DNA of 58,495 nt from an uncultured Opitutia bacterium. Its GTDB lineage: Bacteria; Verrucomicrobiota; Verrucomicrobiia; Opitutales; Opitutaceae. The stretch lies in assembly GCA_903827245.1 (NCBI GenBank), contig CAIKHO010000069.1, forward strand, positions 1 through 58,495, given 5' to 3'. Both the position numbers and the translations under genes were made by a program. The notes under the pieces were generated by a model. That model searched no databases. It had not been told where the DNA came from and was given only the letters and a program-made list of their open reading frames with translations. Positions 12,331 to 51,625 of this stretch are shown one piece after another (the first letter of the stretch is position 1; every line of letters begins with the position of its first letter).

Positions 12331-12333
12331 CCC

Positions 12334-12959: not shown

Positions 12960-13050
12960 AATACGCTCCTTCATCCCCACGGACGGAAGCCGGCCGCCGG
13001 ACCATCAGCAGGATTGCAAATTCGCTCCCAGCAATGGCATTAATTCAAAA

Positions 13051-13452
13051 ATGAAACCCTTCCTGCTCCTTGTTCTCCTCGCCGCGCCCGCCGCGGCTGC
13101 GCCGCGCTCGGTGTGGGAAGGGGTTTATTCGAGCGAGCAGGCCGGTCGCGGCCAGAAGGCCTATGCGACCGAATGCGCCCGCTGCCATGGCGAAGATCTT
13201 CTCGGGGACCCGGATTCCCCGCCGCTGATCAAGGAGGACTTTCTCAAGAAGTGGAACGGGAAGTCGGTCGGCAAGCTTGTCGAGCAGACCAGAAAAACGA
13301 TGCCATCGGACACCCCCGGCCGGTTGAACCGCCAGCTCTCGACCGACATCGTTACCTATCTCCTCAGCGTGAATGGCTTTCCCGCGGGACAGGGCGAGCT
13401 CGTTTACGACCTCAGCCTGCTAAATCAAATCGGCATCGAGTCGAAAAAGTGA
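13051..13452 (+). CDS. Secreted class I cytochrome c
   Basis: Periplasmic single-haem electron carrier. The 133-residue precursor has a signal peptide (MKPFLLLVLLAAPAAAAP), one haem-attachment motif CARCH at residues 42-46 within YATECARCHGEDLLG, and a likely axial Met84 in RKTMPSDTPG. Terminal helix NRQLSTDIVTYLLSVNGFP is typical of the cbb3/quinohaemoprotein-type c domains. It lies downstream of iorAB in the same direction but is separated from it by a terminator and another gene. Acceptance of electrons from the Ior complex is therefore possible but inferred. Confidence 0.88.
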   Translation: MKPFLLLVLLAAPAAAAPRSVWEGVYSSEQAGRGQKAYATECARCHGEDLLGDPDSPPLIKEDFLKKWNGKSVGKLVEQTRKTMPSDTPGRLNRQLSTDIVTYLLSVNGFPAGQGELVYDLSLLNQIGIESKK

Positions 13453-19582: not shown

Positions 19583-20194
19583 ATGCCCTCCGCGAGCCAG
19601 CAAAAACCTTGGCCCATGAAATGGGTGCTCCTTGCGATCATCGTCGTGATCGTGCCCTACACCTATCTCACGCTGCATTACCGCAAGCCCGGGCCCGCCT
19701 TCCGCCCGTACGAGGATACCAAGAATCGCGCGATCACCATCCGGCTGCTTTCGACGGGGTACCAGCGCATCGCCCTCGACGCCACCCGTCCGGCCGACCC
19801 GCTGCATGTCGCTGCGTCCGCCAGTTCGTCCGCCGTGGCCGGGGGCCTGCCCTCGGCCCTCACCGGCGCCCTGATTGACCAGCCGTTGCTGCCGATCTCC
19901 ATCGACAGCGTCACGGCGCCCGGCAGCGCGGCGGCGGCCCAGCCCTATTTCATCCAGTTCACCTGCTCGCTCGCCGACAACAAGGCCCAGCTCGCCGGCG
20001 GGCATCTTTACCGCCGGGACGGCGAGATCGTCGTGGTGCCCTCGTTCGAAACCCTGGCCGGCGGCCTGCTCGCCCGCACGCGGGACAGCATGGTTTTGCT
20101 CACCGTGCCCGCGGGCGCGTTGAAGCCCGGGCAGTATCTCGTGACGCTTGCCGGCAGCCGTGCGTCGCGCCAGTGGACGTTGCAAGTGCATTGA
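19583..20194 (+). CDS. Membrane-anchored hypothetical protein, 203 residues
   Basis: Unknown function. One N-terminal membrane segment (about residues 12-31, MKWVLLAIIVVIVPYTYLTL) is followed by an extracytoplasmic domain of about 170 residues with beta-rich segments (YFIQFTCSLADNKAQLAGG, GQYLVTLAGSRASRQWTL) and an Ala/Ser-rich loop near residues 75-95. The C-terminal part looks like an Ig-like or jelly-roll beta domain, but no family is recognised. A start at the second Met (residue 12) is equally possible. argA follows after 43 bases on the same strand, so co-transcription is likely. Confidence 0.65.
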   Translation: MPSASQQKPWPMKWVLLAIIVVIVPYTYLTLHYRKPGPAFRPYEDTKNRAITIRLLSTGYQRIALDATRPADPLHVAASASSSAVAGGLPSALTGALIDQPLLPISIDSVTAPGSAAAAQPYFIQFTCSLADNKAQLAGGHLYRRDGEIVVVPSFETLAGGLLARTRDSMVLLTVPAGALKPGQYLVTLAGSRASRQWTLQVH

Positions 20195-20237
20195 CGAGCC
20201 GCGCCGCATCGTCGAGAACGAGCGCGCCCAACCACTG

Positions 20238-21581
20238 ATGAGCAACGGCAATGGCAACTCCTCCCCGCCGCCCGCGTCCCCCGCGCAGGCGACGGTCATC
20301 AAACCCACGGACCTCCGCGGCATCCTGAAATATGTCCCGCGGTTCCAGGGCCAGATCTTCATCATCGCGATCGACGGCTCGATCATCGCCGACGAAAATT
20401 TCAGCAACCTGCTCGTTGACATCGCCGTGCTGCGCAGCCTGGGCATCAAGATCCTGCTGGTGCACGGCATCGGCCAGCAGATCCAGGAACTCTCCACGGC
20501 CCGCAATATCCCGATCACCAATGCCGACGGCACCGGTGTCACCGATGCACCCACGCTCGACCTCGCCATCCGGGCTTCGTCCCGGGTCGCGCACGCGCTC
20601 GTCGAGGGCCTGACCCAGAACAACCTGAAATGCGCCACGACCAACGCGGTGCGCGCCCTCCCCATTGGCATCATCAAGGGCGTGGACCAGCAGTTCACGG
20701 GCAAGGCCGAGCGCATCGACAAGGATTTCATCGGCGAGCTCATCGACCGCCAGGTCGTGCCCGTCGTATCGCCCATCGCGTTCGGACCCGATGGCAAGTC
20801 CCTCCGGGTGAACTCCGACCTGCTCGCGGCCGAGCTGGCGGAGGCGCTGCACGCGACCAAGATCATCTATCTTACCCCGCAGCCCGGCCTCGAGATCAAC
20901 GGCGAGGTGCGCCGGGACATTTCCGTCGACGCCCTCCGCGTCCTGCTGCGGGACCATCCCGAACATCTGGGCGAGACCAGCCTGAGCAAGGCCGTGCACG
21001 CCGTGAAGGCCATCGAGACCGGCACGCCGCGCGTGCATGTCGTCGACGGCCGGGTGTTTGACAGCCTGCTCAACGAGATCTTCTCCAGCGAGGGCGTCGG
21101 CTCGCTCATCTACGGCAACGACTACCAACAGATCCGCAAGGCCCAGCGCCGCGACGTGCGGCTGATCTACAACCTCACGCGCAACGCGGTGAAGCGCGAG
21201 GAACTCATCTACCGGACGCAGAAGGCGATCGAGGAAAACATCGACCAGTTCTTCGTGTTCGAGATCGACGAGAACATCATCGCGTGCGTCACGCTCTATT
21301 TCTATCCGGGCAAGGCCCAGCTGGCCGAGATCGGCTCGCTCTACGTCCTGCCGTTCTACCACAACCGCGGCATCGGCAAGAAGATGGTCGAATACGCCTG
21401 CATGATGGCCAAGGAGCGCGGCGCCAACACGGCGATCGCGCTTTCGACGCAGAGTTTCGGCTTCTTCAGCAGCGTCTGCGGCTTCGAGGAAACCACCAAG
21501 GACATCCTGCCCGACGCCCGGCTGAAGCTCTACGAGGACAGCGGCCGCAATGCCAAGGTGCTGGTGAAACAACTCGCCTGA
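20238..21581 (+). CDS. argA: N-acetylglutamate synthase (amino-acid kinase-like plus GNAT)
   Basis: First step of arginine synthesis: acetyl-CoA plus L-glutamate to N-acetylglutamate. The 447 residues have an N-terminal amino-acid-kinase fold (YVPRFQGQIFIIAIDGSIIA, LVHGIGQQIQEL, PVVSPIAFGPDGKSLRVNSD; arginine-sensing in the family). The C-terminal acetyltransferase domain carries the acetyl-CoA loop LPFYHNRGIGKKMVEYACMM. This two-domain architecture equals E. coli ArgA. ATG 20238 is used; the 90 bases before it overlap the preceding gene and have no family match. Feedback inhibition by arginine is expected from the family, not seen. Confidence 0.9.
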   Translation: MSNGNGNSSPPPASPAQATVIKPTDLRGILKYVPRFQGQIFIIAIDGSIIADENFSNLLVDIAVLRSLGIKILLVHGIGQQIQELSTARNIPITNADGTGVTDAPTLDLAIRASSRVAHALVEGLTQNNLKCATTNAVRALPIGIIKGVDQQFTGKAERIDKDFIGELIDRQVVPVVSPIAFGPDGKSLRVNSDLLAAELAEALHATKIIYLTPQPGLEINGEVRRDISVDALRVLLRDHPEHLGETSLSKAVHAVKAIETGTPRVHVVDGRVFDSLLNEIFSSEGVGSLIYGNDYQQIRKAQRRDVRLIYNLTRNAVKREELIYRTQKAIEENIDQFFVFEIDENIIACVTLYFYPGKAQLAEIGSLYVLPFYHNRGIGKKMVEYACMMAKERGANTAIALSTQSFGFFSSVCGFEETTKDILPDARLKLYEDSGRNAKVLVKQLA

Positions 21582-21604
21582 CGCCGCGGGAATCGCGCGC
21601 CCGG

Positions 21605-22423
21605 CTATTTCGAGTTTCCTTGGGGCGTCCCTGTCTTATCCAGTTTGATCCAGGCCTGCGCAAATCGGCGTCCAAGTTCGCGCTGGGACGCCGTGTCGAA
21701 ATGCAGGTGGTCCCCTTTGTCGACGAGCGCCACCGAGGCCACGAAGGCGCACCGCGGCACCTGCGCGGGCAATGTCGCCAACACCTGGTTGATTCCGGCA
21801 TTTGCGGGCCGGAAACGCCCGGGTTCGCCCACAATGACCGGGACATCGCCCGCATCCAGATCGGCGCGCAACTGCGCGATCATGGCAGTGAATCGCCTGG
21901 CATAACTCGCGGTTTGTTCGGGCGCGATGTCCGACTCGCCCTGATGCCAGAGGATGCCGGCCAGCCGTCCCCGCTTCATCGCCTCGCGTGCGCGTGCCAC
22001 CGCATTATTGTAGAGTTCTCCGCCCGGTTTCCACTGGTCGAGCGACGTGCTGCCGACGGCGGCGGGGATCAGTCCGACGGCAATCTTCGGATCGGCATCG
22101 GCCACCACCCGCCCGAAGTTCAGTCCCGGCCCGACGCCGGCAATATCGGGTTTGTCATAATGCAGCGGATCGACGGCCGGACGCCATTTGAGGTCCTTCG
22201 TGAGCATGAAGATCCGTGGATGCGGCACCCGGTCCTGCGGCTCGACGATGCCGCGCCCGGCCATGTTGGACTGCCCGATCAGGAGAAAAAGCCTCAGTTC
22301 GGAGGGCACGGCGGTATCCGCCGGGGCGGCCGCGCCGAGCAACGCCGGCCACGCCGCCAGCAGTGCGGGCAGTGCGCGGAAAAGCACCCCGAGCGGGACC
22401 TGCACCGGGCCGGGGTTGATCAT
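21605..22423 (-). CDS. Secreted carbohydrate esterase (CE6-like, SGNH fold)
   Basis: Likely removes acetyl groups from plant-type polysaccharide such as xylan, or from sialate-like sugars, outside the cytoplasm. The 272-residue precursor has a signal peptide (hydrophobic residues about 8-33). The SGNH blocks are LLIGQSNMAGRG with nucleophile Ser52, IPAAVGSTSLDQW, LWHQGESD, and a C-terminal DKGDHLHFD providing the Asp/His of the triad. The family is CE6/DUF303. Its start overlaps the RidA gene stop (ATGA), so the two are coupled, and it converges on argA with 23 bases between. The substrate is inferred only from the family. Confidence 0.82.
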   Translation of the reverse strand: MINPGPVQVPLGVLFRALPALLAAWPALLGAAAPADTAVPSELRLFLLIGQSNMAGRGIVEPQDRVPHPRIFMLTKDLKWRPAVDPLHYDKPDIAGVGPGLNFGRVVADADPKIAVGLIPAAVGSTSLDQWKPGGELYNNAVARAREAMKRGRLAGILWHQGESDIAPEQTASYARRFTAMIAQLRADLDAGDVPVIVGEPGRFRPANAGINQVLATLPAQVPRCAFVASVALVDKGDHLHFDTASQRELGRRFAQAWIKLDKTGTPQGNSK

Positions 22424-22881
22424 GATTTCAATTCTACCACGACCTGTACTTCCGTCGTCGAACCTCGCGGGAGGCCATTGACGGCAACAGCGGCCCGGGC
22501 GTGCTTCCCGGCGTCACCGAAGATTTTCACGAAAAGATCGCTGGCGCCGTTGATCACCGCGGGACTGTCCGCGAAGCCATTCACCGCATTGACGAAACCG
22601 CTGACAAAAACGATCCGCGCCACCTTGTCCAGCGAGCCGGCCGCCGCCTTGATGTTGGCGAGCGTGTTGAGTGCGCAGATCTCAGCCGATTTATTTCCCG
22701 TCTCGATGGTCTGCTCCCGTCCGACCTGCCCGGTATGGGTCATCTGGCCGTTGAGCAGGCAGATGGTGCCGGCGCAGTAGAGTAGATTCCCGGTGCGCAC
22801 TGTGGGCACATAGCTGCCCGCGGCGGCGGGCGGATTCGGGAGGGAAAGGCCGAGTTCGGCCAGGCGGGCTTCGGGGTTCAT
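22420..22881 (-). CDS. RidA/YjgF-family protein
   Basis: RidA proteins hydrolyse reactive enamine/imine intermediates, and other subgroups act in diverse deaminations. The 153 residues (MNPEARLAELGLSLPNPPAA) belong to the longer YjgF subgroup. Supporting blocks are GNLLYCAGTICLLNGQ, ALNTLANIKAAAGSL, and ARAAVAVNGLPRGSTTEVQV with the arginine that typically binds the substrate carboxylate. It is encoded upstream of, and overlapping with, the CE6-like esterase gene. It may be unrelated to the esterase in function. Confidence 0.85.
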   Translation of the reverse strand: MNPEARLAELGLSLPNPPAAAGSYVPTVRTGNLLYCAGTICLLNGQMTHTGQVGREQTIETGNKSAEICALNTLANIKAAAGSLDKVARIVFVSGFVNAVNGFADSPAVINGASDLFVKIFGDAGKHARAAVAVNGLPRGSTTEVQVVVELKS

Positions 22882-22949
22882 GAGGCCGCGAGCTTCAACG
22901 AAAGGGTGGAAGACGCCAAGAATTTTGGCGCGGAGCTTATTTCCGAAAA

Positions 22950-23021
22950 TGTAGGAGCGGCTTTACGCCGCGATTTTGGCGTCGGCTAAACAACTCATCG
23001 CGGCGTAAAGCCGCTCTTACA
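22950..23021. repeat. REP-like palindrome, GTAGGAGC family, copy 1
   Basis: Two 25-nt arms (22950-22974 and 22997-23021) are complementary with one mismatch. The loop contains TTTGGCG and CTCATCGCG, which recur in the copy at 55411-55480. The right arm contains the TAA stop of the adjacent amidohydrolase gene (23017-23019). Confidence 0.8.
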
Positions 23022-23994
23022 GCCGGAGGACACGTTTCGCGTTTTCATAAAACACCGCGGCAAGGCTGTCCGCGGAAATTCCCGACAACTGCGCCTCACG
23101 CACCAGACGGGCTATTTCGGGTTCGGATTCCAGCCGCGGGTAGAGATTAAGGGGGAAATCCGAGCCGAACAGGACATGATCCGGACCGGCCTCCCGGATA
23201 AAATTCCGCCAAATCTCCGGTCCGTAAAGCAACGGTGAGGCGGCGGTGTCGTAATAAATATTTGCCGGCAGCTTCGTCGACCCGCGATCCATCGGGAGCA
23301 GGCCGCCCCAATGGGCCAAGATGAACGTCGCGTGCGGAAATTGGTTCGCGAGCCCGATAAAGTCCGTCAGCGGGGTCATCACCCGGCCCGGATAATCCCA
23401 ACCTTCGGGATCGGTCACATGCAGGTTCACCGGCAGCTTCAGTTCCGCCGCGAGCGCCAGTACCTCGCGGAAAACAGGATCGTCGACCGCATAACCCTGG
23501 GAATGCGGCGAGAGTTCGCCCAGCCCGGCCAAGCCTTCGTCCCGGGCCCGGCGCAGTTCCGCCAAGGCCGGCTCGCGGCCCGCCGCCGGCTGCAGCGCAG
23601 CAAACGCCGACAACCGGTCAGGGTGAAGCCGGACACACTCTGCGTAAAAACGATTTTGCTCGGCACACGATTCCGCCCGCTGCCAGTACCAGCCAAGGAG
23701 CACAGCGCGCACGATGCCAGCCTCGTCCATCGCGCGCAGCAGGCCGGATACCTCTGGAAATGCCTGGACCGGCCTGCCGTTCTTGCGCTGGCGCAGGCTC
23801 AGCAGGGCCCAATGCGTTTCGCCGCGGACGGCGGCCCAGCCCGAGGGATCGCGGTTGAGCCCGGAGGGATAAAGATGGACGTGGCTGTCGATCACCGGCA
23901 CGCGCCGAAATTCATGTGTCCTGCGATTCCGTGCAATCCGCAACTCGAAGCCGGCGGCACGAAGCGTGCTTTGGCCTTTGGTCTTGTCTGTCAT
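23017..23994 (-). CDS. Amidohydrolase-2 family metal-dependent hydrolase
   Basis: Probable TIM-barrel hydrolase or decarboxylase of the ACMSD/amidohydrolase-2 family. VIDSHVHLYP supplies the HxH metal motif. FILAHWGG, a second-sphere His in LPVNLHVTDPEGW, and DHVLFGSDFPLNLYP with the conserved late Asp complete the site. The length is 325 residues from ATG 23994. A GTG start at 23901, directly before PVIDSHVHL, would give 294. The peptide between the two is suspicious: it matches translated intergenic-repeat-like DNA, and ATG 23994 overlaps the start codon of the divergent nucleoside permease gene. The stop codon lies in a palindrome arm. The substrate is unknown; purine-region context does not define it. 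Confidence 0.75.
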   Translation of the reverse strand: MTDKTKGQSTLRAAGFELRIARNRRTHEFRRVPVIDSHVHLYPSGLNRDPSGWAAVRGETHWALLSLRQRKNGRPVQAFPEVSGLLRAMDEAGIVRAVLLGWYWQRAESCAEQNRFYAECVRLHPDRLSAFAALQPAAGREPALAELRRARDEGLAGLGELSPHSQGYAVDDPVFREVLALAAELKLPVNLHVTDPEGWDYPGRVMTPLTDFIGLANQFPHATFILAHWGGLLPMDRGSTKLPANIYYDTAASPLLYGPEIWRNFIREAGPDHVLFGSDFPLNLYPRLESEPEIARLVREAQLSGISADSLAAVFYENAKRVLRL

Positions 23995-25063
23995 GACCCT
24001 CCGTCCGCTGCTCATTTGCACCCTGTTGGGCTGTCTCTTTTCAATCGGGAGAGCCGCCGATGGCCTCATCCGGCCCAAAGTGGTTGTCGTCACGATGTTC
24101 GAGGCCGGGGCCGATACGGGCGATACGCCCGGCGAATTTCAGTTCTGGGTGGAACGCGAACATCTCGACCGTGTAATTCCGCTTCCTGCCGCCTACCATG
24201 ATGTCAGGGCCAATGCCGACGGCTCGGTCATCGGCATCGTGACCGGCGAGGGCAACACCAATGCCGCCGCCACGATCATGGCCCTGGGCTCCGATCCGCG
24301 CTTTGATTTTCGCCAGAGCTACTGGCTGGTGGCGGGTATCGCCGGCGTCGACCCGGCGGACGCCTCGATCGGATCGGCCGTCTGGGCGGATTATGTCGTC
24401 GACGGTGACCTGGCCCACGAAATCGATGCGCGGGAAATCCCTGCTGACTGGCCCGTCGGCTATGTGCCGCTTGGAAAAAGCCGCCCTTACCAGCAGCCAC
24501 GGAGCAAGGACGAGTATGCGTCGGGCCAGATCTACCAACTTGATCCCGGTCTCGTCCAATGGGCTTTTGCGCTCACCCGCGACACTCCCTTGGTCGACAA
24601 TGACAAAATGGCCGCGCGGCGCGCCACCTATACCGGGTCGCCCAACGCCCAGCGTCCGCCCTTCGTGCTGATCGGCGCCAATCTCGCCGCCAGTACCTAC
24701 TGGCACGGCAAATTGCTCAATCAATGGGCCAACGCCTGGGTCAGTTATTACTCCGACAGCCAGGCCAACTATGTGACCACGGCGATGGAGGACAGCGGCA
24801 CGCTCCGTTCGCTGACGAATCTCGGCCGCGCCGGCAGGGTCGACCCCAGGCGCGCACTGGTGCTGCGCACCGCGAGCAATTACGATATGCAATGGCCCGG
24901 CGCGACCGCGGCCGAGAGCATGAGCGGCGAGCAACTCGGTGTTTACAGTGCTTATATTCCTTCTCTTGAGGCGGCCTATCGCGTGGGTAGCCCGGTGGTC
25001 CACGCGCTCGTCAAGGACTGGGATCGCTACGCCGATCATCTGCCCGGGACTGCTTCCAAATGA
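23993..25063 (+). CDS. Secreted purine nucleoside permease-like protein (NUP family)
   Basis: The NUP family (PF06516) was first described as a fungal purine nucleoside permease but has a nucleoside-phosphorylase-like fold. The 356-residue precursor has a signal peptide (MTLRPLLICTLLGCLFSIG). Recognisable blocks are PKVVVVTMFEAGADTGDTPG, IGIVTGEGNTNAAATIMALG, SYWLVAGIAGVDPADASIGS, NYVTTAMEDSGTL and LRTASNYDMQWPG. It is probably periplasmic and binds or cleaves purine nucleosides. It begins an operon: its stop overlaps the next start (ATGA at 25060). The start codon overlaps that of the divergent amidohydrolase. Confidence 0.85.
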   Translation: MTLRPLLICTLLGCLFSIGRAADGLIRPKVVVVTMFEAGADTGDTPGEFQFWVEREHLDRVIPLPAAYHDVRANADGSVIGIVTGEGNTNAAATIMALGSDPRFDFRQSYWLVAGIAGVDPADASIGSAVWADYVVDGDLAHEIDAREIPADWPVGYVPLGKSRPYQQPRSKDEYASGQIYQLDPGLVQWAFALTRDTPLVDNDKMAARRATYTGSPNAQRPPFVLIGANLAASTYWHGKLLNQWANAWVSYYSDSQANYVTTAMEDSGTLRSLTNLGRAGRVDPRRALVLRTASNYDMQWPGATAAESMSGEQLGVYSAYIPSLEAAYRVGSPVVHALVKDWDRYADHLPGTASK

Positions 25064-25821
25064 AATGGCCGCTCTTTCCTCTTTTCGTGCTGGCCATTGC
25101 CGCCGGTACCCTGGTCCGGGCCCAGCCGGTGGATTTGCTGATCGAGGCGGCGGATGATGCGGCACTGAAGCCGCTCCTCCAGAAACTTGAACAGGCTCAA
25201 GTCGAGACCCGGGCCGCCTGGACCTTCTGGCATGGCACACTCGCCGGCAAAACGGTCGTGCTCGCCCGCAACGAGGGTGATCCGCTCAACGCCGTCGCTG
25301 CCACTGCCCTGGCCGTGCGGCTTCACCCGCCGCGCCTGATCATCACCTACGGCTCGGCCCGGGCGCACGATCCTGCGCTGCACGCCGGCGACATCGTCGT
25401 CAGTGCGAGCTTCGCCGCCTTCGACGGGATGTTTTCCCCGCACCTCGGCCCCGGCGAAGGCAGCCGCCCGGCGCAATGGGAAAAACTGCCGCACCTCCTG
25501 ATGTCGCCCGGCGAAAAGGAAACGCCAGCCGAGTCCTTTCCGGCCGATGCAGCCGCACTTTCCTTGGCCATGACACTCAGTCCCGCTCACGGCCACGTGG
25601 TCCGCGGGGTCCTCGGCTCCGCCAACCAGGTCAATCGCGAGGCGGATCGGGTCGCGTGGATCCACACCCTGTGGCACACCAGCACCGAGGACGGGGAATC
25701 AGCCCATATCGCCGGTTGCGCCGCGCTGCTGGGCGTGCCCGTCATTGGCCTGCGCGTGGTAGACGCACCGGCGACCGACGCGGCGGATTTCGCCCTTCGG
25801 CTGGTGGAGGCGTGGCGATGA
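25060..25821 (+). CDS. Secreted nucleoside phosphorylase/hydrolase-superfamily protein A
   Basis: A 253-residue member of the PNP/UDP-phosphorylase or MTA/SAH-nucleosidase superfamily. The signal peptide (MKWPLFPLFVLAIAAGTLVR) would place it in the periplasm, unlike ordinary cytosolic MTAN. Seen are RLIITYGSARAHDPALHAGD (superfamily oligomer/ribose-site region), VVRGVLGSANQVNREADRVA and a late EDGESAHIAGCAALLGVPV corresponding to the substrate-binding Glu/Met loop. It is coupled to both neighbours by ATGA overlaps (25060 and 25818). Hydrolysis or phosphorolysis of nucleosides is inferred. The second paralogue follows. Confidence 0.75.
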   Translation: MKWPLFPLFVLAIAAGTLVRAQPVDLLIEAADDAALKPLLQKLEQAQVETRAAWTFWHGTLAGKTVVLARNEGDPLNAVAATALAVRLHPPRLIITYGSARAHDPALHAGDIVVSASFAAFDGMFSPHLGPGEGSRPAQWEKLPHLLMSPGEKETPAESFPADAAALSLAMTLSPAHGHVVRGVLGSANQVNREADRVAWIHTLWHTSTEDGESAHIAGCAALLGVPVIGLRVVDAPATDAADFALRLVEAWR

Positions 25822-26648
25822 AACGCGCAATCTTTCTCCTCCTTGTACTGACTGCGTCGCTTCGCGCGGCGGAGCCGGTCGATATCCTTGTCCAGGGGGC
25901 GGAGAAACTGGAAATTCGCGAGCTCATCGCGGGTCTCGGGGCCGGCGCGCAGAAAGTCACCATCGGGCCGTTCAGCTTCTGGCTCGGGCGCGTCGGCCCC
26001 CACCGCGTGGCGGTGTCTCTGACCGGCCAGGCCCTGATCAACTGCACCACGGCCACGATCATCGGCATCGAGGAATTCCATCCCGCGCTCATCGTCAACC
26101 AGGGCACCAGCGGCGCGCAGGCGCCCTACCTCACGCTCAACGACATCATTGTCGGACGCCGCGCGCTGGATTATGATAATTTTATCACGCCCGTCACGGC
26201 GGTGGGCCAGGGCAGCTCGCCGTTGGCCTGGACTCCCGTGCCGCAACGTCTGCGCGATCCGGCGACCGGCCAGCTGGTCCCCTATCCGGAGGGTTTTGCG
26301 GGCGATCCCGCCGCGCTTGCGGCCGCTCTGCGCACCCGCAACCCGATGGGCCGGGTGTTCGCCGGTGTGATCGGGTCGGCGCACGAGGTTAATCTCGAAC
26401 TCGACCGCGTGCGTTGGTCCCAGCGCACGTTCGGCATGGATGTCGAGGAGATGGAATCCGGCCATGTCGCGGCGATCGCCCATGCCTACGGCATCCGCTA
26501 CATCGCGTTCCGCGTCGTGAGCGACGCGCCGTACGAGGGTGTGCCGTTCAACCCGAACGCCGCGCGGGCCACCGGCTTGTTTACCTTGAATTTCCTCGAA
26601 AACCTGCCTCCGCTCGCCGCGCCGCCCCTCCCGCACCCCACCCCCTGA
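25818..26648 (+). CDS. Secreted nucleoside phosphorylase/hydrolase-superfamily protein B
   Basis: A 276-residue paralogue of the preceding protein with its own signal peptide (MKRAIFLLLVLTASLRAAEP). FHPALIVNQGTSGAQAPYL, NDIIVGRRALDYDNF and the late MDVEEMESGHVAAIAHAYGI correspond to the MTAN/PNP blocks. The EEMESG motif contains the Glu-Met-Glu that contacts ribose in this superfamily, so it looks catalytically competent. ATG 25818 overlaps the previous stop. An AzgA-type purine permease gene starts 17 bases downstream, which supports purine nucleosides as substrates: base released outside, then imported. Confidence 0.8.
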   Translation: MKRAIFLLLVLTASLRAAEPVDILVQGAEKLEIRELIAGLGAGAQKVTIGPFSFWLGRVGPHRVAVSLTGQALINCTTATIIGIEEFHPALIVNQGTSGAQAPYLTLNDIIVGRRALDYDNFITPVTAVGQGSSPLAWTPVPQRLRDPATGQLVPYPEGFAGDPAALAAALRTRNPMGRVFAGVIGSAHEVNLELDRVRWSQRTFGMDVEEMESGHVAAIAHAYGIRYIAFRVVSDAPYEGVPFNPNAARATGLFTLNFLENLPPLAAPPLPHPTP

Positions 26649-26665
26649 ACCGCGCCTTTCGCCCC

Positions 26666-28003
26666 ATGCTCAAACGTTTCTTCAAACTCGACCAGGCCGG
26701 CAGCACCGTCGGCCGCGAAATGCAGGCCGGCCTGACCACCTTCGCGGCCATGGCCTACATCCTCGTGGTGAATCCCGACATCCTCGCCAACACCGGCATG
26801 GACAAGGGCGCGCTCGTGACGGTCACAGCCCTGACTGCCGCCGTCGCGACAACCATCATGGCATTGATGACCAATTACCCCCTCGCACTCGCGCCGGGCA
26901 TGGGCATCAACGCGTTTTTCACCTTCACGATCTGCCTCACCAACAAGGTTCCGTGGCAGGAAGCGCTCGGCATGGTCTTCGTGAACGGCGTGATTTTCCT
27001 GCTCCTCTCCGTAACTGGCGTGCGCGAGAAGATCGTCCGCGCGATTCCCTACGCCCTCAAGATCGCGATCACCTGCGGCATCGGGCTTTTCATCGCGTTC
27101 ATCGGGCTCAAAAACGGCGGCGTGATCGTGGCCGACCAGGCCACCTACGTTTCCCACGGCGATTTCACCTCGCCTCCCGTCGCCCTCTGCCTCGCCGGTA
27201 TCGTTCTTACCACCGTCCTCGTCGCGCGCCGGGTCCCGGGCGCGATCGTCCTGAGCATCGCCCTGGTCACGCTGGCGGGATTCATCATTCCGGCCGGTGG
27301 CGGCAAGACCGTAACGCCGGTGCCCACCGCCATCTTTTCCCTGCCTTCGAGCATGGCGCCTGTCTTTCTCAAGCTGAGCTTCGGCTTCCTGAAAAGCTGG
27401 GCATCGCTCCAGGCCGCTCTGCCGCTCATCCTCACGCTCCTGCTCGTCGACATGTTCGACAACATCGGGACGCTCATCGGCGTGACCAAACGCGCCGGCT
27501 ACCTCGACAAGGACGGCCACCTGCCCGGCGCCGGTCGCGCCTTGGTGGCCGATTCCTGCGCCACGCTCCTGAGCGCCTTGTTCGGCACCTCCACGGTCAC
27601 CAGCTACATCGAGTCCGCCTCCGGCGTGGAGGCGGGCGGACGCACGGGACTCACCACCCTCACGACCGCGGCCCTCATGCTCCTCGCACTGTTTCTTACG
27701 CCGCTGATCCTGATCGTGCCGGCTGCAGCGACCGCCCCGGCGCTCGTCGTCGTGGGCATCTTCATGATGCAGTCGGTCGTGGAAATTAACATGGCCGACT
27801 TCCAGATCGCCGCGCCGGCGGTCATCACGATCCTCGCGATTCCCCTTACCTTCAGCATCGCGCAAGGCATCGGCCTCGGGTTGATCTCCGCCGCACTGCT
27901 GGCACTCCTGACCGGCAAGCCGCGGGGCTTCACACCCGTCGGCTACGCCATCGCCGTCGTCTTCTTCCTCGATTTCTTTCACCTCTTCCCGTTCAGCGGC
28001 TGA
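26666..28003 (+). CDS. NCS2 purine permease, AzgA type (adenine/guanine/hypoxanthine)
   Basis: Inner-membrane proton symporter for purine bases. The 445 residues have about 12-14 hydrophobic segments. Diagnostic AzgA-cluster motifs are GREMQAGLTTFAAMAYILVV, NPDILANTGM, NYPLALAPGMGINAFF, LLVDMFDNIGTLIGVTKRAG and ALFGTSTVTSYIESASGVEA. The AzgA/GhxP subgroup differs from the uracil/xanthine subgroup encoded next. Its start at 26666 lies 17 bases after the third secreted phosphorylase-like gene, so the four genes form one transcription unit. Confidence 0.92.
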   Translation: MLKRFFKLDQAGSTVGREMQAGLTTFAAMAYILVVNPDILANTGMDKGALVTVTALTAAVATTIMALMTNYPLALAPGMGINAFFTFTICLTNKVPWQEALGMVFVNGVIFLLLSVTGVREKIVRAIPYALKIAITCGIGLFIAFIGLKNGGVIVADQATYVSHGDFTSPPVALCLAGIVLTTVLVARRVPGAIVLSIALVTLAGFIIPAGGGKTVTPVPTAIFSLPSSMAPVFLKLSFGFLKSWASLQAALPLILTLLLVDMFDNIGTLIGVTKRAGYLDKDGHLPGAGRALVADSCATLLSALFGTSTVTSYIESASGVEAGGRTGLTTLTTAALMLLALFLTPLILIVPAAATAPALVVVGIFMMQSVVEINMADFQIAAPAVITILAIPLTFSIAQGIGLGLISAALLALLTGKPRGFTPVGYAIAVVFFLDFFHLFPFSG

Positions 28004-28218
28004 ATAAGCCTCGATGTCCGGGCCTCCGCTCCATCTGCGGCCATCCGGGCAATCCGTGGCCAAAAATCCGGGATCCGAACTTGGTTTCACGCCATGACGC
28101 CACGCCACGCTTCAATCCCACTGGCCCGGGAATTCTGCTCGGATACGTCGCATTCGTGGCGTCGTCGTGCGAAGCCGGAAGCTGAGGTTTTTTACCGGAA
28201 TGGTTCGCTGCCTGCTTA
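28004..28218. other. Intergenic region with repeat remnants
   Basis: Contains GGCAATCCGTGGCCAAAAAT near 28048, which resembles half of the repeat at 31222-31352, and a GACGCCACG/CGTGGCGTC inverted pair (28096-28104 and 28155-28163). No gene is visible; it probably includes the promoter of the next permease gene. Confidence 0.35.
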
Positions 28219-29556
28219 ATGGGGCTGATGGAACACGAATCTCCGGGTGGCGCGATGGTCTACGGACTGGAGGACAAGCTGCCGCTTGGCACCGCCCTAC
28301 TGGTCAGCCTGCAGCAGGTCTCGGCCATGGTGGTGGGTGTGATCACCCCGGCGTTGCTGTTGGCCAACATCCTCAAGTTTCCCGCGCCGGACACCGCCTA
28401 TCTCGTCAGCATGGCGCTCTTCGCCGCCGCCATCGGAACCTTCTTCCAGACTTCCCGCTTTGGGATCCTCGGCTCGGGCCTGCTCAGCGTGACGGGGACA
28501 AGTTTTGCCTTCATCCAGCCGCTGATCCAGGCCGGGCAAACGGGCGGGCTCGCCCTCATGTTCGGCATGTCGCTGGTCGCCGCGCCCGTGCCGCTGCTGC
28601 TCGCCCCGTTTCTGCCGCGCCTGCGCCACTTGTTTTCACCGCTCGTGTCGGGCATCGTCGTGCTGCTGATCGGACTCTCGATCATCCCCGAGGCGATGCG
28701 CGGCATTGTGGCCTTGCCCGCGCCCGGCGCCCCCGCTTGGGCGGGCGCGCTGATCGCAGCGGTCGTGATCGCCGCAGTCCTGCTCGCCCAGGCCATCGGC
28801 CGCCCTTGGACGCGCCTCGCCGGCATTTTGTTCGGCGTCGCTGCCGGCTACCTCGCGTGCGGGCTCGCCGGCTGGCTGCAGGCCCCGCCACCGAGCGAGC
28901 AGGGCTGGATCACGCTACCCCGACTGCTGCCGCACGGGCTCGCCTTTCGCTGGGAATACGCCCTGCCCTTCGGATTTATCTACCTCGTGTCGCTGCTCGA
29001 GGCGATGGGCGACATGACCGCGACGGCCCAGCTTTCCGGGTTGAAGACCCGAGGCCCGGAGCATGGCGCGCGGATGCGCGGCGGGATTTTCGTGGATAGC
29101 CTCACCAGCATTGTGGCGGCCCTGATCGGCTCGTTTCCGAGCACAACCTATGCCCAGAACAACGGCGTGATCCAGATCACCGGCGTCGCCAGCCGTCATA
29201 TCGGCAAATGGATGGCCGCGATCCTGGCCTTGCTGGCTCTCTTCCCGGTCGTCGGGCGCTGGGTCACGGCCATGCCCCCCGCCGTGCTGGGCGGGATGGC
29301 GCTCCTGCTGTTCGGCCTGGTCTCCGTCGCGGGCCTGCGCCTGATCTTCAGCGCCGGCCTGCCCCACCGCAACGCGCTCATCGTGGCACTGGCGCTCGGC
29401 ATCGGGCTGGGCGCACCCTCCCAGCCGCAGTGGCTCGAAACCCTGCCGGCCGTGCTGCGCACGCTGCTCGCCTCGGGCATTTCCGCCGGCGGAGTCACCG
29501 CCTTGCTGCTGAACCTTCTCCTGCCGGGCGGACGGACAAACGAGTCCGTCGAGTAA
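28219..29556 (+). CDS. NCS2 uric acid/xanthine permease (UacT/XanQ type)
   Basis: Proton-coupled uptake of xanthine or urate across the inner membrane. The 445 residues have about 12-14 hydrophobic segments. KLPLGTALLVSLQQVSAMVV is the N-terminal family motif, TGTSFAFIQPL lies in TM3-4, SLLEAMGDMTATAQLSG has the essential Glu region, and STTYAQNNGVIQITGVASR is the NCS2 signature. ATG 28219 is used; a second ATG at 28228 is equally possible. With the 8-oxoguanine deaminase encoded convergently downstream and the AzgA-type permease upstream, it completes a purine uptake region. Confidence 0.9.
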   Translation: MGLMEHESPGGAMVYGLEDKLPLGTALLVSLQQVSAMVVGVITPALLLANILKFPAPDTAYLVSMALFAAAIGTFFQTSRFGILGSGLLSVTGTSFAFIQPLIQAGQTGGLALMFGMSLVAAPVPLLLAPFLPRLRHLFSPLVSGIVVLLIGLSIIPEAMRGIVALPAPGAPAWAGALIAAVVIAAVLLAQAIGRPWTRLAGILFGVAAGYLACGLAGWLQAPPPSEQGWITLPRLLPHGLAFRWEYALPFGFIYLVSLLEAMGDMTATAQLSGLKTRGPEHGARMRGGIFVDSLTSIVAALIGSFPSTTYAQNNGVIQITGVASRHIGKWMAAILALLALFPVVGRWVTAMPPAVLGGMALLLFGLVSVAGLRLIFSAGLPHRNALIVALALGIGLGAPSQPQWLETLPAVLRTLLASGISAGGVTALLLNLLLPGGRTNESVE

Positions 29557-29652
29557 TCATCACACCTGCATCCCGATTGAGACCCTGCGCCATACTCATA
29601 CAATGATGGTCATAGCAGCAAACGTAAGGAAGCTGTCTCCCTTGGCCTCCCC

Positions 29653-29706
29653 TCGGATTGCCTCCTGTAATACGTCCGATCCGTAGCACAGGAGGCGATC
29701 CAAGGC
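29653..29706. repeat. Palindrome of the TCCGATCC-loop family, copy 1
   Basis: The arms TTGCCTCCTGT (to 29668) and ACAGGAGGCGATCCAAGG (29688-29705) are complementary with few mismatches. The loop includes TCCGATCC. A second copy with different outer arms but the same CTCCTGT/ACAGGAG core and TCCGATCC loop lies at 58244-58314. It occupies the gap between the convergent permease and deaminase genes. Confidence 0.65.
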
Positions 29707-29789
29707 CGTACCAAGCGGTCAGACTGTGACGCCCCTGTCTCGCCTTCAACTGGATGATTCTAGCTGAAGCAACGAGACTGAGACTCCCT

Positions 29790-31148
29790 TTACGCGCCCG
29801 CCAAAAGTTCATACGCCAGTCGGTTGTGGCGCTCCACGATCATGGGAAGGTCAAGGGTAGTGACGTGGCCGTCCCGGACGACAATCCGGCCGTTGATCGC
29901 GCTGTACGCCACGGTAGCTGGGGCGCAGAAGACGAGCGCGGCCACGGGGTCGTGCCCGGTGCCGGCAAATCCGACCCCGCCGAGGTCGAAGGCTGCAAAG
30001 TCCACCGCCATTCCCGGCGCGAGCGCGCCGATGTCGTCGCGGTTCAGCACCTGCGCCCCGCCTAGGGTCGCCAGTTCCAGCGCGGTGCGGGCACTCATCG
30101 CGCCGGGGCCGTGGCCCACGCGCTGCAGCAGCATCGCCTGACGCGCCTCGGCGAGCAGGTGGCTGCTGTCATTCGATGCAGATCCATCGACGCCCAGTCC
30201 GACCGTGACGCCTTTCGCGTGCATCTTGCAGACCGGGGCGATGCCGGAAGCCAGACGCATGTTGGAGCATGGACAGTGCGCCACTCCCGTGCCCGTCCGG
30301 GCAAAGCGATCGATGCCGGCATCATCCAGCTGCACACAGTGCGCATGCCACACGTCGCGGCCCAGCCAGCCGGTGTCCTCGGCATACTCCGCCGGGGTCA
30401 TGCCGAATTTTTCCCGGCTGTAGTCCACGTCGTTGGTGTTCTCCGCCAGGTGCGTGTGCAGCGAGACCCCGAACGCCCGCGCGAGCGCCGCCGACTCGCG
30501 CATCAGGTCGCGGCTCACCGAGAACGGCGAGCACGGGGCCACCGCGATGCGCTGCATCGCGAAACGCCTGGCATCATGGTACGCTTCGATCACGCGCTGC
30601 GTATCCTTGATGATATCCGCTTCGCGTTCGACCAGGCTGTCCGGCGGCAATCCGCCCTTGCTGCGCCCGACGCTCATGCTCCCGCGGGTGGCATGAAAGC
30701 GGAGACCGATGCGCTCGGCCGACTCGATCGTGTCATCGAGCCGGCCGCCGTTGGGAAAGAGGTATAGATGGTCGCTCGACGTGGTGCAGCCGGAGAGCAT
30801 GAGCTCCGCCATGGCCACCAGCGCCGAGACCCGGAGCATCTCCGGCGTCAACCTGCTCCAGATAGGATAAAGTTTTTCCAGCCAGCCAAAGAGTTCCACA
30901 TCCTGCGCCGCGGGCACGACCCGCGTCAGGCTCTGAAACATATGGTGGTGGGTGTTGACCAGGCCGGGAATGACGATGTGCCCGGAGAGATCAAGCACCT
31001 CATCGGCCGTTGACGGCAGTTCCGCCGTGGGGCCGACCACCACAATGCGGGGGCCCTCCGCAAACAGTCCGCCGCCTCGAATCTCACGGCGGCGGCCGTC
31101 CATCGTGACGAGAACCGTGGCGTTCTTGACGAGCAGTGTGCCGGGCAT
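29790..31148 (-). CDS. 8-oxoguanine deaminase (amidohydrolase, TrzN/AtzA-like)
   Basis: Deaminates 8-oxoguanine to urate in oxidised purine catabolism. The 452 residues show the metal ligands NTHHHM (His67, His69), HTHLAEN, HAHCVQ and a late Asp in GLGVDGSASNDSSH. Segments specific to the 8-oxoguanine deaminase group are VVPAAQDVELFGWLEKLYPI, LMLSGCTTSSDHLYLFPNGG and TRGSMSVGRSKGGLPPDSL. It has no signal peptide and is cytoplasmic. It is convergent with the xanthine/urate permease gene; urate is the deamination product and a typical UacT substrate, which links the two. The triazine hydrolase alternative is less likely given these segments. Confidence 0.88.
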   Translation of the reverse strand: MPGTLLVKNATVLVTMDGRRREIRGGGLFAEGPRIVVVGPTAELPSTADEVLDLSGHIVIPGLVNTHHHMFQSLTRVVPAAQDVELFGWLEKLYPIWSRLTPEMLRVSALVAMAELMLSGCTTSSDHLYLFPNGGRLDDTIESAERIGLRFHATRGSMSVGRSKGGLPPDSLVEREADIIKDTQRVIEAYHDARRFAMQRIAVAPCSPFSVSRDLMRESAALARAFGVSLHTHLAENTNDVDYSREKFGMTPAEYAEDTGWLGRDVWHAHCVQLDDAGIDRFARTGTGVAHCPCSNMRLASGIAPVCKMHAKGVTVGLGVDGSASNDSSHLLAEARQAMLLQRVGHGPGAMSARTALELATLGGAQVLNRDDIGALAPGMAVDFAAFDLGGVGFAGTGHDPVAALVFCAPATVAYSAINGRIVVRDGHVTTLDLPMIVERHNRLAYELLAGA

Positions 31149-31221
31149 GGCGGAAATGCTTCACCAAGTCGGTCGCGGCACAACCCGTCTTTTGGTTAGC
31201 GGCATCATTTCACGTCGAGTC

Positions 31222-31352
31222 GCGGATTTTTTTGCCACGAAAAAGCACGATATGACACAAAAATGAGCCCGCCGACGTGGTCCGAAGCTACAATCGCTTC
31301 CGAACGGTTCCTATCGTGTCATTTCGTGCCTTTTCGTGGCAAAAATCCGTGG
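31222..31352. repeat. Large inverted repeat with GGATTTTTGCCACGAAAA-type arms
   Basis: The left arm, about 31222-31260, and the right arm, about 31312-31352, are complementary over roughly 36 positions with a few mismatches and a 2-nt length difference in the T-run. The arms include TGCCACGAAAA and GCACGAWATGACAC. It lies upstream of the deaminase start and downstream of the TonB remnant. Half copies appear near 28048. Confidence 0.7.
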
Positions 31353-31408
31353 TTGGTCGAGAACTGCACTCTCGCCTGCTTTTGGTCCAGTCAGCCCCGC
31401 AAACGACA

Positions 31409-31436
31409 GCGGCGGCGAGAACAGCCTCGCCGCCGC
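31409..31436 (-). terminator. GC-rich hairpin after the TonB-receptor remnant
   Basis: GCGGCGGCGAG (31409-31419) pairs perfectly with CTCGCCGCCGC (31426-31436) around a 6-nt loop, 29 bases past the receptor stop codon on the minus strand. The T-tract is poor. It is probably the original terminator of the now truncated receptor gene. Confidence 0.6.
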
Positions 31437-31465
31437 GCCGGACCTGGCACAAACGGAACCGCCGG

Positions 31466-31740
31466 TCAGAACTTGTACTTGACCGTGGCAAATCCCTCGA
31501 TGCCGGGATCGGGCACAATGGCCTCCAGCCCGTAAGTCGGATAGGCCGGGGTCCAGTTATGTTCATTCGTGAAGTTGGTCACGCTAAGGCGAAAATCCCA
31601 GCTCTTCGATTTATAAAACACACTCGCGTCGATGGTCTTCTGCCAGGGAATAACGAGGTAACCCTGGTAGTCGTTGTTGATCGGACTGGTGATCACCGCA
31701 TTGAGCGAGACGCCATAGCCGCTGTCCCAAGCGTATCGGC
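31466..31740 (-). pseudogene. C-terminal remnant of a TonB-dependent receptor
   Basis: The last 80-90 codons of an outer-membrane TonB-dependent receptor survive: SGYGVSLNAVITSPINNDYQ, then KTIDASVFYKSKSWDFRLSV, TNFTNEHNWTPAY and the terminal beta strand GIEGFATVKYKF ending in Phe, as needed for BAM recognition. Upstream of about 31740 the reading frame becomes meaningless and overlaps, in another frame, the front of a different gene. The N-terminal plug and most of the barrel (typically 600-900 residues) are missing. It is a deletion remnant and not expressible as a receptor. Confidence 0.8.
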
Positions 31741-32295
31741 GTCGTTTCGCAGGATCGCCCACTCCGCCATCGCGCTGGTACGAAATCCGCGGTCGAGCGC
31801 CATCGACCAGGGCACGATGATGCCGCCCTCGACCGAACCGTTGCCGACCCCGCCCGAATTGGTCGGCAACTTCACAAAGGGCATCACGGCCGCAAGTGCC
31901 TGCAGCCCCGGATCGCTCCAGAAGGTCCATTTCGGCCGGATGTAGAGGTCGCCGACGCCCGAACTTGAACTCGTGCCGCCGGTGGTCTTGAGCCGGGAGT
32001 GGAGAAAGAGCTCGAGCCCCACTTGCAGGTCAAGGTGCTCCGTGAGGCCGGTCGTGATGAAGGTCTCGCCGGCGCCCACGGCGGAATACCGGGTGTTGTC
32101 CGGAGTCGACGACTGATTCTGGAACTTCAGGGAAAGCACGTCCATTTTGACGAGGAAGTGCCCCGGGGCGACGGTCATGGGATTTTCCGTCACCTGGGCT
32201 GGCAGCCGACAGGTCACGACCAGGGCAATCAGGCCGAGCCCCAGCCGCCAAAACCCCCGCCCATTCCGCGAATCCGCGCCATTTGCAGGTTCCAT
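31693..32295 (-). pseudogene. Truncated outer-membrane transporter (phenol MetA-pathway-like)
   Basis: The N-terminal part of a beta-barrel 'putative MetA-pathway of phenol degradation' family protein. From ATG 32295 there is a signal segment (FWRLGLGLIALVVTCRLPAQ). Family-like strands follow: TVAPGHFLVKMDVLSLKFQN, TTGLTEHLDLQVGLELF, GVGDLYIRPKWTFWSDPG, LAAVMPFVKLPTNSGGVGNG and SVEGGIIVPWSMALDRG. The family pattern runs to AEWAILRNDADT and then breaks. The remaining 15 codons are out-of-frame receptor DNA ending at the stop at 31693. About the last third of the barrel is lost, so it is probably non-functional. An in-frame start at 32391 would add 32 residues. Confidence 0.75.
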
Positions 32296-32406
32296 CTCCC
32301 CGCATAGGCGAGCTTGGGATTCCGGTGTGCCTCCTGCCCCATCATGCCCCCGGGTCGCGGGCAACGATTTCCTGTGCGTTCTTTTGGCCAAGCAGGTTCG
32401 GGTCCT

Positions 32407-33396
32407 TCAACTGGCGGGTTGCTCGTAAAGCTTGGCCAGGCCCATCAACAAAAGTTCAAGCCGGCGGTAGTATTCATCTTCGGACAGCTTGGGCTTGAGT
32501 TCGCGCAGCTTCGCCAGCGCTAGCTCCAGTTCGTCACGCTGCGCGCGCACCGCGGGCGGCAGTTTTTGTTCGGCCGGGCTGTGGATCAAAACGAACTGCT
32601 GGGCAAGCGGGCCATCGGGCGTCGCACCGTCCTTGGCCTTCTTGACCGCGCGGACACCACGGAACCAGTCAGGCGGAGTGCCGAGGCCGTCGCCGTTGTC
32701 GTCGATCAGGGGATGCTCGGTCGCGAGGCGACCCTCCGTCTTGTAGAACTCGGCGAGCCGGGCGGAGGCGCTGAGGTAGGCCTCGAGCAGCGAGGTCTCC
32801 CCGTCCTTGTCGAGGTCGGCCTGAGGGTCGCCGATGGCCTCGGCGAGGAACTGGCCGAAGCGCGCGTAGTTCTGCTCAAAGCCGCTGCGGGTCGCCGTGA
32901 TGACCACGCGCTGGGGACCCGAGAGTTTGTTCAGGAAGGGCGCACTTGCCGAGGACGTGTCGATGACCGCCAGCGGGCGGTGAACCGGCTGGAGCCACTG
33001 CGCGAGATCCGAGGCCGGAAGGTCCGGGCCGCGCAAATTGAACTTCGCGTCCCTGCCGTCAAACGTGCCATGGCCGATGAACACCAGCCAGAGCTCGCCG
33101 GTTCCTTCTTTCGGCTCGGCCTCGATGGCCTGGCGAAGCAGGTCAAAATCGCTGGACTTGCCGGCATCCGCGCGGCCGATCGTGACGTGTTTCGCACCGG
33201 CTCGTTCGCAGGCCTTTTCCCAAAGGTCCGCCGCCGCGGCAAACGCAGTGCCGAATTCCGCCTCACCGGCGGCGCCTACCACGACGATGACCGTCGTGTT
33301 TTCCATCGCCGGGGCGAGGACGACCGGTCCATTGGGCGGCGGAGCCGCCAGCCCGGGAACTGCCAGCAAAAGAAGTCCGGCCAGCCAGTACCTCAC
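32407..33396 (-). CDS. Secreted caspase-like (peptidase C13-type) protein lacking the usual Cys
   Basis: A 329-residue exported caspase-hemoglobinase-fold protein. The GTG start at 33396 overlaps the upstream stop (GTGA) and opens a signal peptide VRYWLAGLLLLAVPGLAAPP. The fold is seen in TTVIVVVGAAGEAEFG, LWLVFIGHGTFDGRDAKFNL (His109 of the dyad), LAVIDTSSASAPFLNKLSG and VVITATRSGFEQNYARFGQF. Where C13 peptidases have the nucleophile Cys, this protein has Ser/Ala (DTSSASA, residues 146-152), so it may be a binding-only pseudoprotease. Two Ca-loop-like segments follow (DLDKDGETSL, DDNGDGLG). It is the last gene of the MoxR operon. GTG is preferred over ATG 33492 because of the coupling and signal peptide. 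Confidence 0.75.
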   Translation of the reverse strand: MRYWLAGLLLLAVPGLAAPPPNGPVVLAPAMENTTVIVVVGAAGEAEFGTAFAAAADLWEKACERAGAKHVTIGRADAGKSSDFDLLRQAIEAEPKEGTGELWLVFIGHGTFDGRDAKFNLRGPDLPASDLAQWLQPVHRPLAVIDTSSASAPFLNKLSGPQRVVITATRSGFEQNYARFGQFLAEAIGDPQADLDKDGETSLLEAYLSASARLAEFYKTEGRLATEHPLIDDNGDGLGTPPDWFRGVRAVKKAKDGATPDGPLAQQFVLIHSPAEQKLPPAVRAQRDELELALAKLRELKPKLSEDEYYRRLELLLMGLAKLYEQPAS

Positions 33397-51623: not shown

Positions 51624-51625
51624 TT

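Follow-up and report, generated by a model that had tools for sequence, protein, structure and literature searches.

Exported-looking nucleosidases beside base permeases suggest a purine-nucleoside utilization locus in Opitutaceae

Why should three proteins of purine-nucleoside enzyme families, all with export-type N-termini, be encoded in a row directly ahead of two purine base permeases? This arrangement lies on contig CAIKHO010000069.1 from an uncultured Opitutia bacterium of the family Opitutaceae, whose full 58,495 nucleotides we call the window; the assembly (GCA_903827245.1) comprises 3.55 Mb in 91 contigs and is 97% complete. A sequence-only reading of the window proposed a locus for extracytoplasmic salvage of purine nucleosides with recycling of oxidized guanine. 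The comparative evidence described here favors, with a probability of about 0.65, a purine-nucleoside utilization locus of the Opitutaceae in which periplasmic cleavage would feed base import and catabolism. Its most unusual feature is an unequal pair of nucleosidases, which we call P2 and P3. Profile matches and gene coordinates bear out the six genes originally listed, including their positions and order, and these and the adjoining features are as follows.

23993..25063, plus strand: NUP, exported-looking member of the purine nucleoside permease family (PF06516, 387.7 bits; cut-off 27)
25060..25821, plus strand: P2, exported-looking protein resembling methylthioadenosine/S-adenosylhomocysteine nucleosidases (MTANs), with eroded catalytic residues (PF01048, 84.7 bits against 25.1)
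25818..26648, plus strand: P3, exported-looking MTAN-like nucleosidase whose catalytic residues are intact (PF01048, 83.4 bits against 25.1)
26666..28003, plus strand: AzgA-type purine base permease of the NCS2 family (PF00860, 159.3 bits)
28219..29556, plus strand: UacT/PbuX-type xanthine/urate permease of the NCS2 family (PF00860, 243.9 bits)
29790..31148, minus strand: amidohydrolase of the 8-oxoguanine deaminase family (NF006055, 738.7 bits against 532)
31466..31780, minus strand: C-terminal remnant of a TonB-dependent receptor (tblastn match to the receptor of the sister genome)
31693..32295, minus strand: PF13557 (Phenol_MetA_deg) gene, truncated at the receptor deletion (PF13557, 36.5 bits)
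23017..23901, minus strand: Amidohydrolase_2 gene, divergent from NUP, with a GTG start at 23901 preferred (PF04909, 118.2 bits)
22420..22881, minus strand: RidA-family protein, a recurrent neighbor (PF14588, 83.8 bits)

ATGA overlaps, read directly in the sequence, join NUP to P2 and P2 to P3. The AzgA start lies 17 nucleotides past the P3 stop codon, and 215 nucleotides separate the end of AzgA from UacT. The deaminase gene is convergent with UacT on the opposite strand and so is not part of the same operon.

Among solved proteins, both P3 and P2 come closest to a periplasmic enzyme, the MTA/SAH nucleosidase of Aeromonas hydrophila (5b7g, with 181 bits for P3 and 165 for P2), while the next-best solved MTAN reaches only 66.5 and 70 bits; MtaN-2 (6if8) is an entry separate from 5b7g. 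The P3 profile match to 5b7g spans the full length. For P2, a structural model with a predicted local distance difference test score (pLDDT) of 83.9 finds 5b7q as its best match (template modeling score 0.82, VIA Z 32.0, root-mean-square deviation 2.3 Å over 230 residues; Z 29.3 for the second-ranked protein), so that in its predicted structure P2 has the MTAN fold.

The two proteins differ at the catalytic positions, which we take to be E12, E174 and D197 in the numbering of the E. coli MTAN. In P3 the corresponding residues E32, E213 and D236 are invariant in all 12 orthologs. Judged by these residues, P3 would work like an MTAN, yet it is not filed as that equivalog: it scores 60.8 bits (and P2 52.5) against a cut-off of 169 for NF004079, and 30.6 against 73.8 for TIGR01704. 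Among the 11 intact P2 sequences aligned (a 106-residue fragment from genome G295 is excluded from this alignment and its counts), the Glu12 position holds E in five and A, T or L in six, with A in the window. The Glu174 position is E in 10 of 11. The Asp197 loop is one residue shorter in 10 of 11, with an acidic residue beside the gap (D in eight, E in two), and carries an insertion in the remaining one. The segment EGDPLNAVAA is invariant in all 11.

P2 and P3 therefore look like a probable active and degenerate pair, both members being under purifying selection. Compared with the sister genome, P2 has a ratio of nonsynonymous to synonymous substitution rates (dN/dS) of 0.17 and P3 one of 0.09, as computed by a counting method in our own script with dS near 1, and the value for P2 indicates that it is retained by selection although its chemistry looks eroded. 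In a phylogenetic tree, all 11 P2 proteins are monophyletic (support 1.0), as are all 12 P3 proteins (0.63), and P2, P3 and 5b7g form one clade (0.999) in which 5b7g is drawn on the P2 side. A recent tandem duplication is not supported by this tree, and either the P2/P3 pair would be older or P2 would have changed fast.

Two further P3-like loci were seen in relatives. One is a decayed copy with 42% identity and four stops (genome G172, contig C3, 271096-271482); the other is a second cluster at ~2.28 Mb of genome G259, with a distant P3-like protein at 24%, a relative of the deaminase at 40% and, at 29%, a protein resembling adenosine deaminase.

NUP covers positions 2-312 of the 313 in profile PF06516, and its residues M265, E266, D267, S295 and N296 are invariant across eight NUPs; its dN/dS relative to the sister genome is 0.10, again indicating purifying selection. 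Family placement, together with a weak match to futalosine hydrolase, suggests that NUP may also act as a nucleosidase. We presume, as a guess from purine nucleoside phosphorylases, that the Asp of P3 suits 6-aminopurines and the Asn of NUP 6-oxopurines. According to excerpts of one study, the NUP profile is grouped with annotations of the purine and uridine phosphorylase superfamily (PMC9815663).

NUP genes also occur in other forms. In seven genomes (G310, G313, G315, G316, G318, G320 and G321) two adjacent NUP matches share one frame of ~670-720 residues, the tandem NUP genes of genera g101 and g102 being fused. Distant MTAN-like matches adjoin NUP in G211 (contig C45, 31348-31683, 29%), where the match sits between NUP and the receptor, and in G337 (contig C33, 64199-64540, 27%); NUP may have other MTAN-like partners.

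Export was judged by a heuristic that combines N-terminal hydropathy with a cleavage-site pattern and is not a trained predictor. By this measure the signal peptides originally noted on the three proteins are upheld as export-type N-termini: NUP, P2 and P3 of the window each have a hydrophobic N-terminus with a 10-residue mean hydropathy of 2.7-3.0 and a small-residue cleavage pattern. Such N-termini are clear in every ortholog tested (eight NUP, 10 P2 and 12 P3); the P2 of genome G269, whose start the gene finder placed late, was omitted. A like measure with a threshold of 1.8 classed 45 of 58 NUP loci as export-type, with 28 among the 29 loci that the family search gave and 17 among the 29 of the order search. 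All 12 of the order-search loci that were not export-type belong to other families, 10 of them to f20 and f22. Two control PF01048 proteins from the window genome gave 1.14 (contig C1) and 1.93 (contig C51), and the latter passes 1.8. As the C51 protein was presumed to be cytosolic, either the heuristic gives false positives or this protein is exported too.

The permease types originally assigned agree with the nearest solved relatives. For AzgA these are the adenine/guanine permeases AZG1 (230 bits) and AZG2 (169 bits), with no other solved family at E <= 0.001. For UacT the nearest is the uric acid-xanthine permease at 144-149 bits, compared with 67-70 for uracil permease; UacT passes TIGR00801 (307.9 against 291.8) and fails TIGR03173 pbuX (354.4 against 414.15).

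The recycling of oxidized guanine is the weakest part of the sequence-only reading. The deaminase does pass NF006055 and matches the solved proteins 3hpa (766 bits) and 7ww2 (706 bits), but it lies within only three of the 12 P3 loci. Moreover, close relatives also accept guanine and isocytosine, as portions of PMC6186785 state, and related hydrolases act on dimethylguanine according to passages of PMC13054789. An 8-oxoguanine role is therefore possible, though unproven and not specific.

The segment from 28219 to 31148 has a distinct affinity. The UacT and deaminase of the window are 73% and 76% identical to those of genus g100 (genome G307), whose convergent order they share, compared with 63% and 64% for the sister genome. 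A replacement of the UacT-deaminase cassette is probable from these identities.

Orthologs of P3 (68-86% identity) are present in 12 of 252 genomes of the family, counting the window genome, and in all 12 a P2 sequence lies directly upstream, intact in 11 and a fragment in G295. The four-nucleotide P2/P3 overlap is kept in 10 of the 12 loci by gene-finder coordinates, the window included. AzgA is directly downstream of P3 in eight loci and NUP directly upstream of the pair in five, while UacT is present in seven and an intact TonB-dependent receptor in seven. Conservation of gene order with the permeases, by which the sequence-only reading proposed to be judged, is thus found in the majority of loci, whereas in four of 12 P2 and P3 stand alone. 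Outside the family, the P3 profile yielded five matches at E <= 1e-10 in a search of 387 genomes of the phylum, of which four belong to the family itself and one is weak. Distant relatives (23-35% identity) appear in nine records of a plasmid collection, from Pantoea, Metabacillus, Acinetobacter, Photobacterium and Phocaeicola.

Association extends well beyond the P3 loci. Among the 252 genomes, NUP is present in 107 and the receptor in 95; 87 carry both, 20 NUP only, eight the receptor only and 137 neither (Fisher p = 6e-38, kinship uncorrected). In this tally, receptor presence means E <= 1e-100 with at most four candidates scored per genome, so that 39 of 134 genomes with matches between 1e-60 and 1e-100 count as lacking it; the window genome, at 1e-74, is among the genomes counted as lacking it. 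NUP occurs in 42 and the receptor in 36 of the 43 genomes with a deaminase match at E <= 1e-100, and in 29 and 26, respectively, of the 30 genomes that exceed the deaminase cut-off. Of the 12 P3 genomes, 11 have NUP (p = 5e-4, kinship uncorrected) and 10 the receptor. NUP and receptor lie within 12 kb on one contig in at least 22 genomes, as read by eye. Twenty further regions were fetched, 14 of them chosen for NUP near a receptor and two (L181 and L182) for receptor or deaminase; receptor counts from these regions are consequently not a rate, whereas the 252-genome figures are unselected. None of a set of seven NUP loci (L165, L178, L179, L180, L054, L055 and L056) contains the receptor of this group, four of the seven having been selected in the knowledge that NUP had no receptor listed nearby. 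In three of the seven (L055, L165 and L178), NUP lies next to AzgA, UacT or adenosine deaminase.

A receptor does not figure in the sequence-only reading, but relatives carry one, of which the window keeps only the C-terminal end. In relatives this protein has 775-822 residues, with the PF07715 plug and PF00593 barrel in all five that were scanned. Six other receptors are 64-80% identical to that of locus L098, including two outside the domain scan at 64 and 69%. The window remnant corresponds to residues 701-822 of the sister's 822-residue receptor at 43% identity by tblastn (53% over the last 89 residues), which does not amount to the plug and barrel domains. The abutting PF13557 gene matches residues 2-164 of the sister's 246-residue protein at 75%, the match ending at 31735, and lacks the last 82 residues. 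Relative to sister genome G145, ~2.6 kb encompassing the receptor gene and the end of the PF13557 gene seems to have been deleted at 31466-32295, and this single deletion would account for both truncations unless it is an assembly error. No receptor match in the window genome is better than the one at 1e-74 (four of 10 candidates scored). With the receptor lost, nucleoside entry in this organism would use a porin or another receptor.

If bases are imported, the window genome appears equipped to consume them. By sequence it encodes purine degradation from xanthine to ureidoglycolate: one stretch of contig C86 carries xanthine dehydrogenase (TIGR02965, 970 bits against 849.5), ureidoglycine aminohydrolase, allantoinase, allantoate amidohydrolase, HIUase and OHCU decarboxylase along with a malate synthase homolog, and a PuuD-type urate oxidase is on contig C74. 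Urate derived from 8-oxoguanine, or xanthine derived from guanine, would therefore have an onward route. Salvage, as originally proposed, is supported by base permeases next to exported-looking enzymes but is only half of the picture. Urate-pathway genes also occur in the neighborhoods of genomes G259 and G258. Further genes in several neighborhoods encode an adenosine deaminase and a protein of the SAM hydrolase family, each with an export-type N-terminus, as well as adenine deaminase, an amidase and an NMT1-type ABC importer.

Taken together, these genes would support the following route. In relatives, the TonB-dependent receptor would carry a purine nucleoside through the outer membrane. 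Cleavage of the N-glycosidic bond in the periplasm would be the task of NUP and of the P2/P3 pair, with P3 as the catalytic MTAN-type subunit and P2 as its partly degenerate partner. Import of bases across the inner membrane would fall to AzgA for adenine, guanine and hypoxanthine and to UacT for xanthine and urate. The cytosolic amidohydrolase would convert guanine and/or 8-oxoguanine to xanthine and/or urate; degradation of these products by the pathway encoded in the same genome would yield nitrogen and carbon.

A bolder version of this route, which we regard as doubtful, makes P2 and P3 an obligate unequal pair, in which P3 performs the chemistry, P2 contributes the rest of the active site or adjusts specificity (for example towards 6-oxo or damaged purines), and NUP handles a second class of nucleosides. 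The same tentative standing applies, jointly with it, to the origin of P2 as a paralog that lost its general base in many species and kept a new invariant pocket motif within a TonB-dependent system.

Several observations weigh against a utilization locus. Export of all three proteins is judged by a heuristic that also passes the C51 control. P2 and P3 occur with no NUP, permease or receptor of this set nearby in loci L100, L101, L102 and L053; three of the genomes with such a lone pair (G276, G268 and G269) carry NUP and deaminase on other contigs, while genome G114 has P2 and P3 and lacks NUP altogether. The receptor is gone from the window itself, and the link between NUP and receptor is uncorrected for kinship. 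The case for NUP as an enzyme is affected by a model from four sequences with a pLDDT of only 38.5 and a predicted template modeling score of 0.42, by the lack of any match to PDB sequences at E <= 1, and by a futalosine hydrolase match of 24.7 bits against a cut-off of 124.7. Finally, NUP has no purine genes of the set nearby in L054, L056, L179 and L180.

These same data leave room for other functions of the individual proteins. Instead of being a degenerate partner, P2 could be another nucleosidase in its own right, fully active on a different substrate, a possibility of some weight that we nonetheless think improbable. The acid at its Glu174 position, the acidic residue in its 197 loop (each in 10 of 11), its invariant segment and its dN/dS would all suit an active enzyme, but the general-base position is A, L or T in more than half of the proteins, including that of the window, and all non-P3 matches better than 1e-20 adjoin a P3, so P2 is not seen alone. 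It is rather unlikely that P3, with P2, instead serves in the periplasm as an MTA/SAH nucleosidase for the clearance of sulfur nucleosides or signals, with the permeases taking up the released adenine and NUP acting separately. This would explain why the closest solved relatives of both proteins are 5b7g, 5b7p and 5b7q, why P3, like MTANs, retains the acid at the Asp197 position, and why four loci have P2 and P3 with NUP and permeases not nearby; a SAM hydrolase family gene also belongs to loci L099 and L105 and neighbors NUP in L169-L171 and L175-L177. However, both proteins fall far below the NCBI MTAN cut-off, and in two thirds of the P3 loci a purine base permease follows P3 directly.

The name of its Pfam family and its tight co-occurrence with the receptor would also fit NUP as a non-enzymatic periplasmic protein that binds purine nucleosides and serves the receptor by delivering them. 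We consider this unlikely, because the M-E-D and S-N residues appear to resemble catalytic motifs of the phosphorylase superfamily and because the purine-gene neighbors, where found, are base permeases and deaminases. That the locus is only a loose neighborhood with no joint function is very improbable. Gene content does vary among loci, and the window UacT and deaminase are nearer to those of G307 than to those of the sister genome. However, the conserved P2/P3 overlap and the strong (though kinship-uncorrected) co-occurrence over 252 genomes argue otherwise, and the fact that the replacing genes bring the same two functions favors a joint role. The utilization locus thus remains our preferred reading. 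The exported-looking purine enzymes, adjacent permeases and co-conservation on which the sequence-only reading was built survive in it, whereas the novelty of export and the restriction to salvage do not; oxidized guanine is the weakest part, and the receptor had been missed.

How does this gene set compare with known systems? Structures 5b7g, 5b7n, 5b7p and 5b7q represent the periplasmic MTA/SAH nucleosidase of A. hydrophila (Xu et al. 2017, as cited in a portion of PMC6302742). P2 and P3 share its PF01048 type, and it is nearest to both by sequence and to P2 by fold. Its deposited chain, however, reads Asn at the Asp197 position, unlike the Asp of P3. Borrelia burgdorferi exports the MTANs Bgp and MtnN, proposed suppliers of transportable adenine, and the excerpts of the source that reports them mention neither a TonB-dependent receptor nor a degenerate partner in tandem nor an operon with base permeases (PMC7557402). 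With exported MTANs known in both genera, export itself is not new, and the surprise that the sequence-only reading attached to secretion of normally cytosolic enzymes falls away. The 8-oxoguanine deaminases (NF006055, 3hpa; Hall et al. 2010, as cited in a section of PMC6186785) resemble the window enzyme, which passes their model, and members of that group act on guanine and isocytosine too. The downstream half of the route is classical bacterial purine catabolism with its base permeases (AzgA, UacT, PuuD, HIUase and OHCU decarboxylase), from which the locus differs in that the cleavage step has apparently been relocated to the periplasm.

Sus-type loci bring together an outer-membrane TonB receptor, exported hydrolases and an inner-membrane importer. 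Here, nucleosidases and base permeases take the place of the glycosidases and sugar importers of those polysaccharide loci. Searches of the open-access PMC literature found, among the matches listed, no TonB-linked nucleoside locus and no report of this NUP context. By title, no exported NUP appeared among the matches listed, a search on exported nucleosidases gave no title on bacterial ones, and among the matches listed for TonB, uric acid and Verrucomicrobia no title concerned nucleosides. What seem to be new are the gene set, often with its own outer-membrane receptor in relatives, and a paired enzyme of which one half is partly degenerate.

The surroundings of the locus offer some further observations. 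Relatives of the PF04909 amidohydrolase and of the RidA-family gene each recur in five of the 11 other P3 loci. The called ATG codons of NUP and the amidohydrolase overlap on CATG (23901-23995), while the amidohydrolase GTG start, favored by ortholog N-termini, leaves ~90 nucleotides to NUP. An inverted repeat resembling repetitive extragenic palindromic elements, with 23-nucleotide arms and one mismatch, lies at 22951-23020; its core was seen twice more on the fetched stretch of contig C74, and the sister genome has an amidase gene at this position. Promoter-like sites number three where 1.5 are expected and terminator-like sites three where 6.7 are expected. An Rfam scan of 20000-34000 gave no match.

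An export-type protein of the SAM hydroxide adenosyltransferase family lies beside the receptor in L099 (6183-7073) and L105 (14965-15867) and might release adenosine outside the inner membrane. The genes at 9518-13452 encode a [2Fe-2S] subunit, a molybdopterin hydroxylase subunit that matches a twin-arginine signal, and a cytochrome c; the set looks like a periplasmic molybdenum hydroxylase, and matched xanthine dehydrogenase models below their cut-offs. At 49567-53216, ~20 kb away, a sugar-type ABC importer (BPD_transp_2 permease, Peripla_BP_4 binding protein and an ATPase with two ABC stretches) could import ribose that is released in the periplasm.

In these soil and water bacteria, exported enzymes appear to cleave purine nucleosides before they reach the inner membrane, and the bases so released appear to be imported as food. 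If this is true, nucleosides would have a dedicated uptake locus reaching from the outer membrane to the cytosol, as is known for polysaccharides. Testable functions would follow for NUP, so far named a permease, and for a receptor group present in 95 of 252 genomes of the family (E <= 1e-100). P2 and P3 would provide a natural example of an exported nucleosidase whose partner is degenerate, and the Opitutaceae would be tied to the turnover of nucleic-acid nitrogen.

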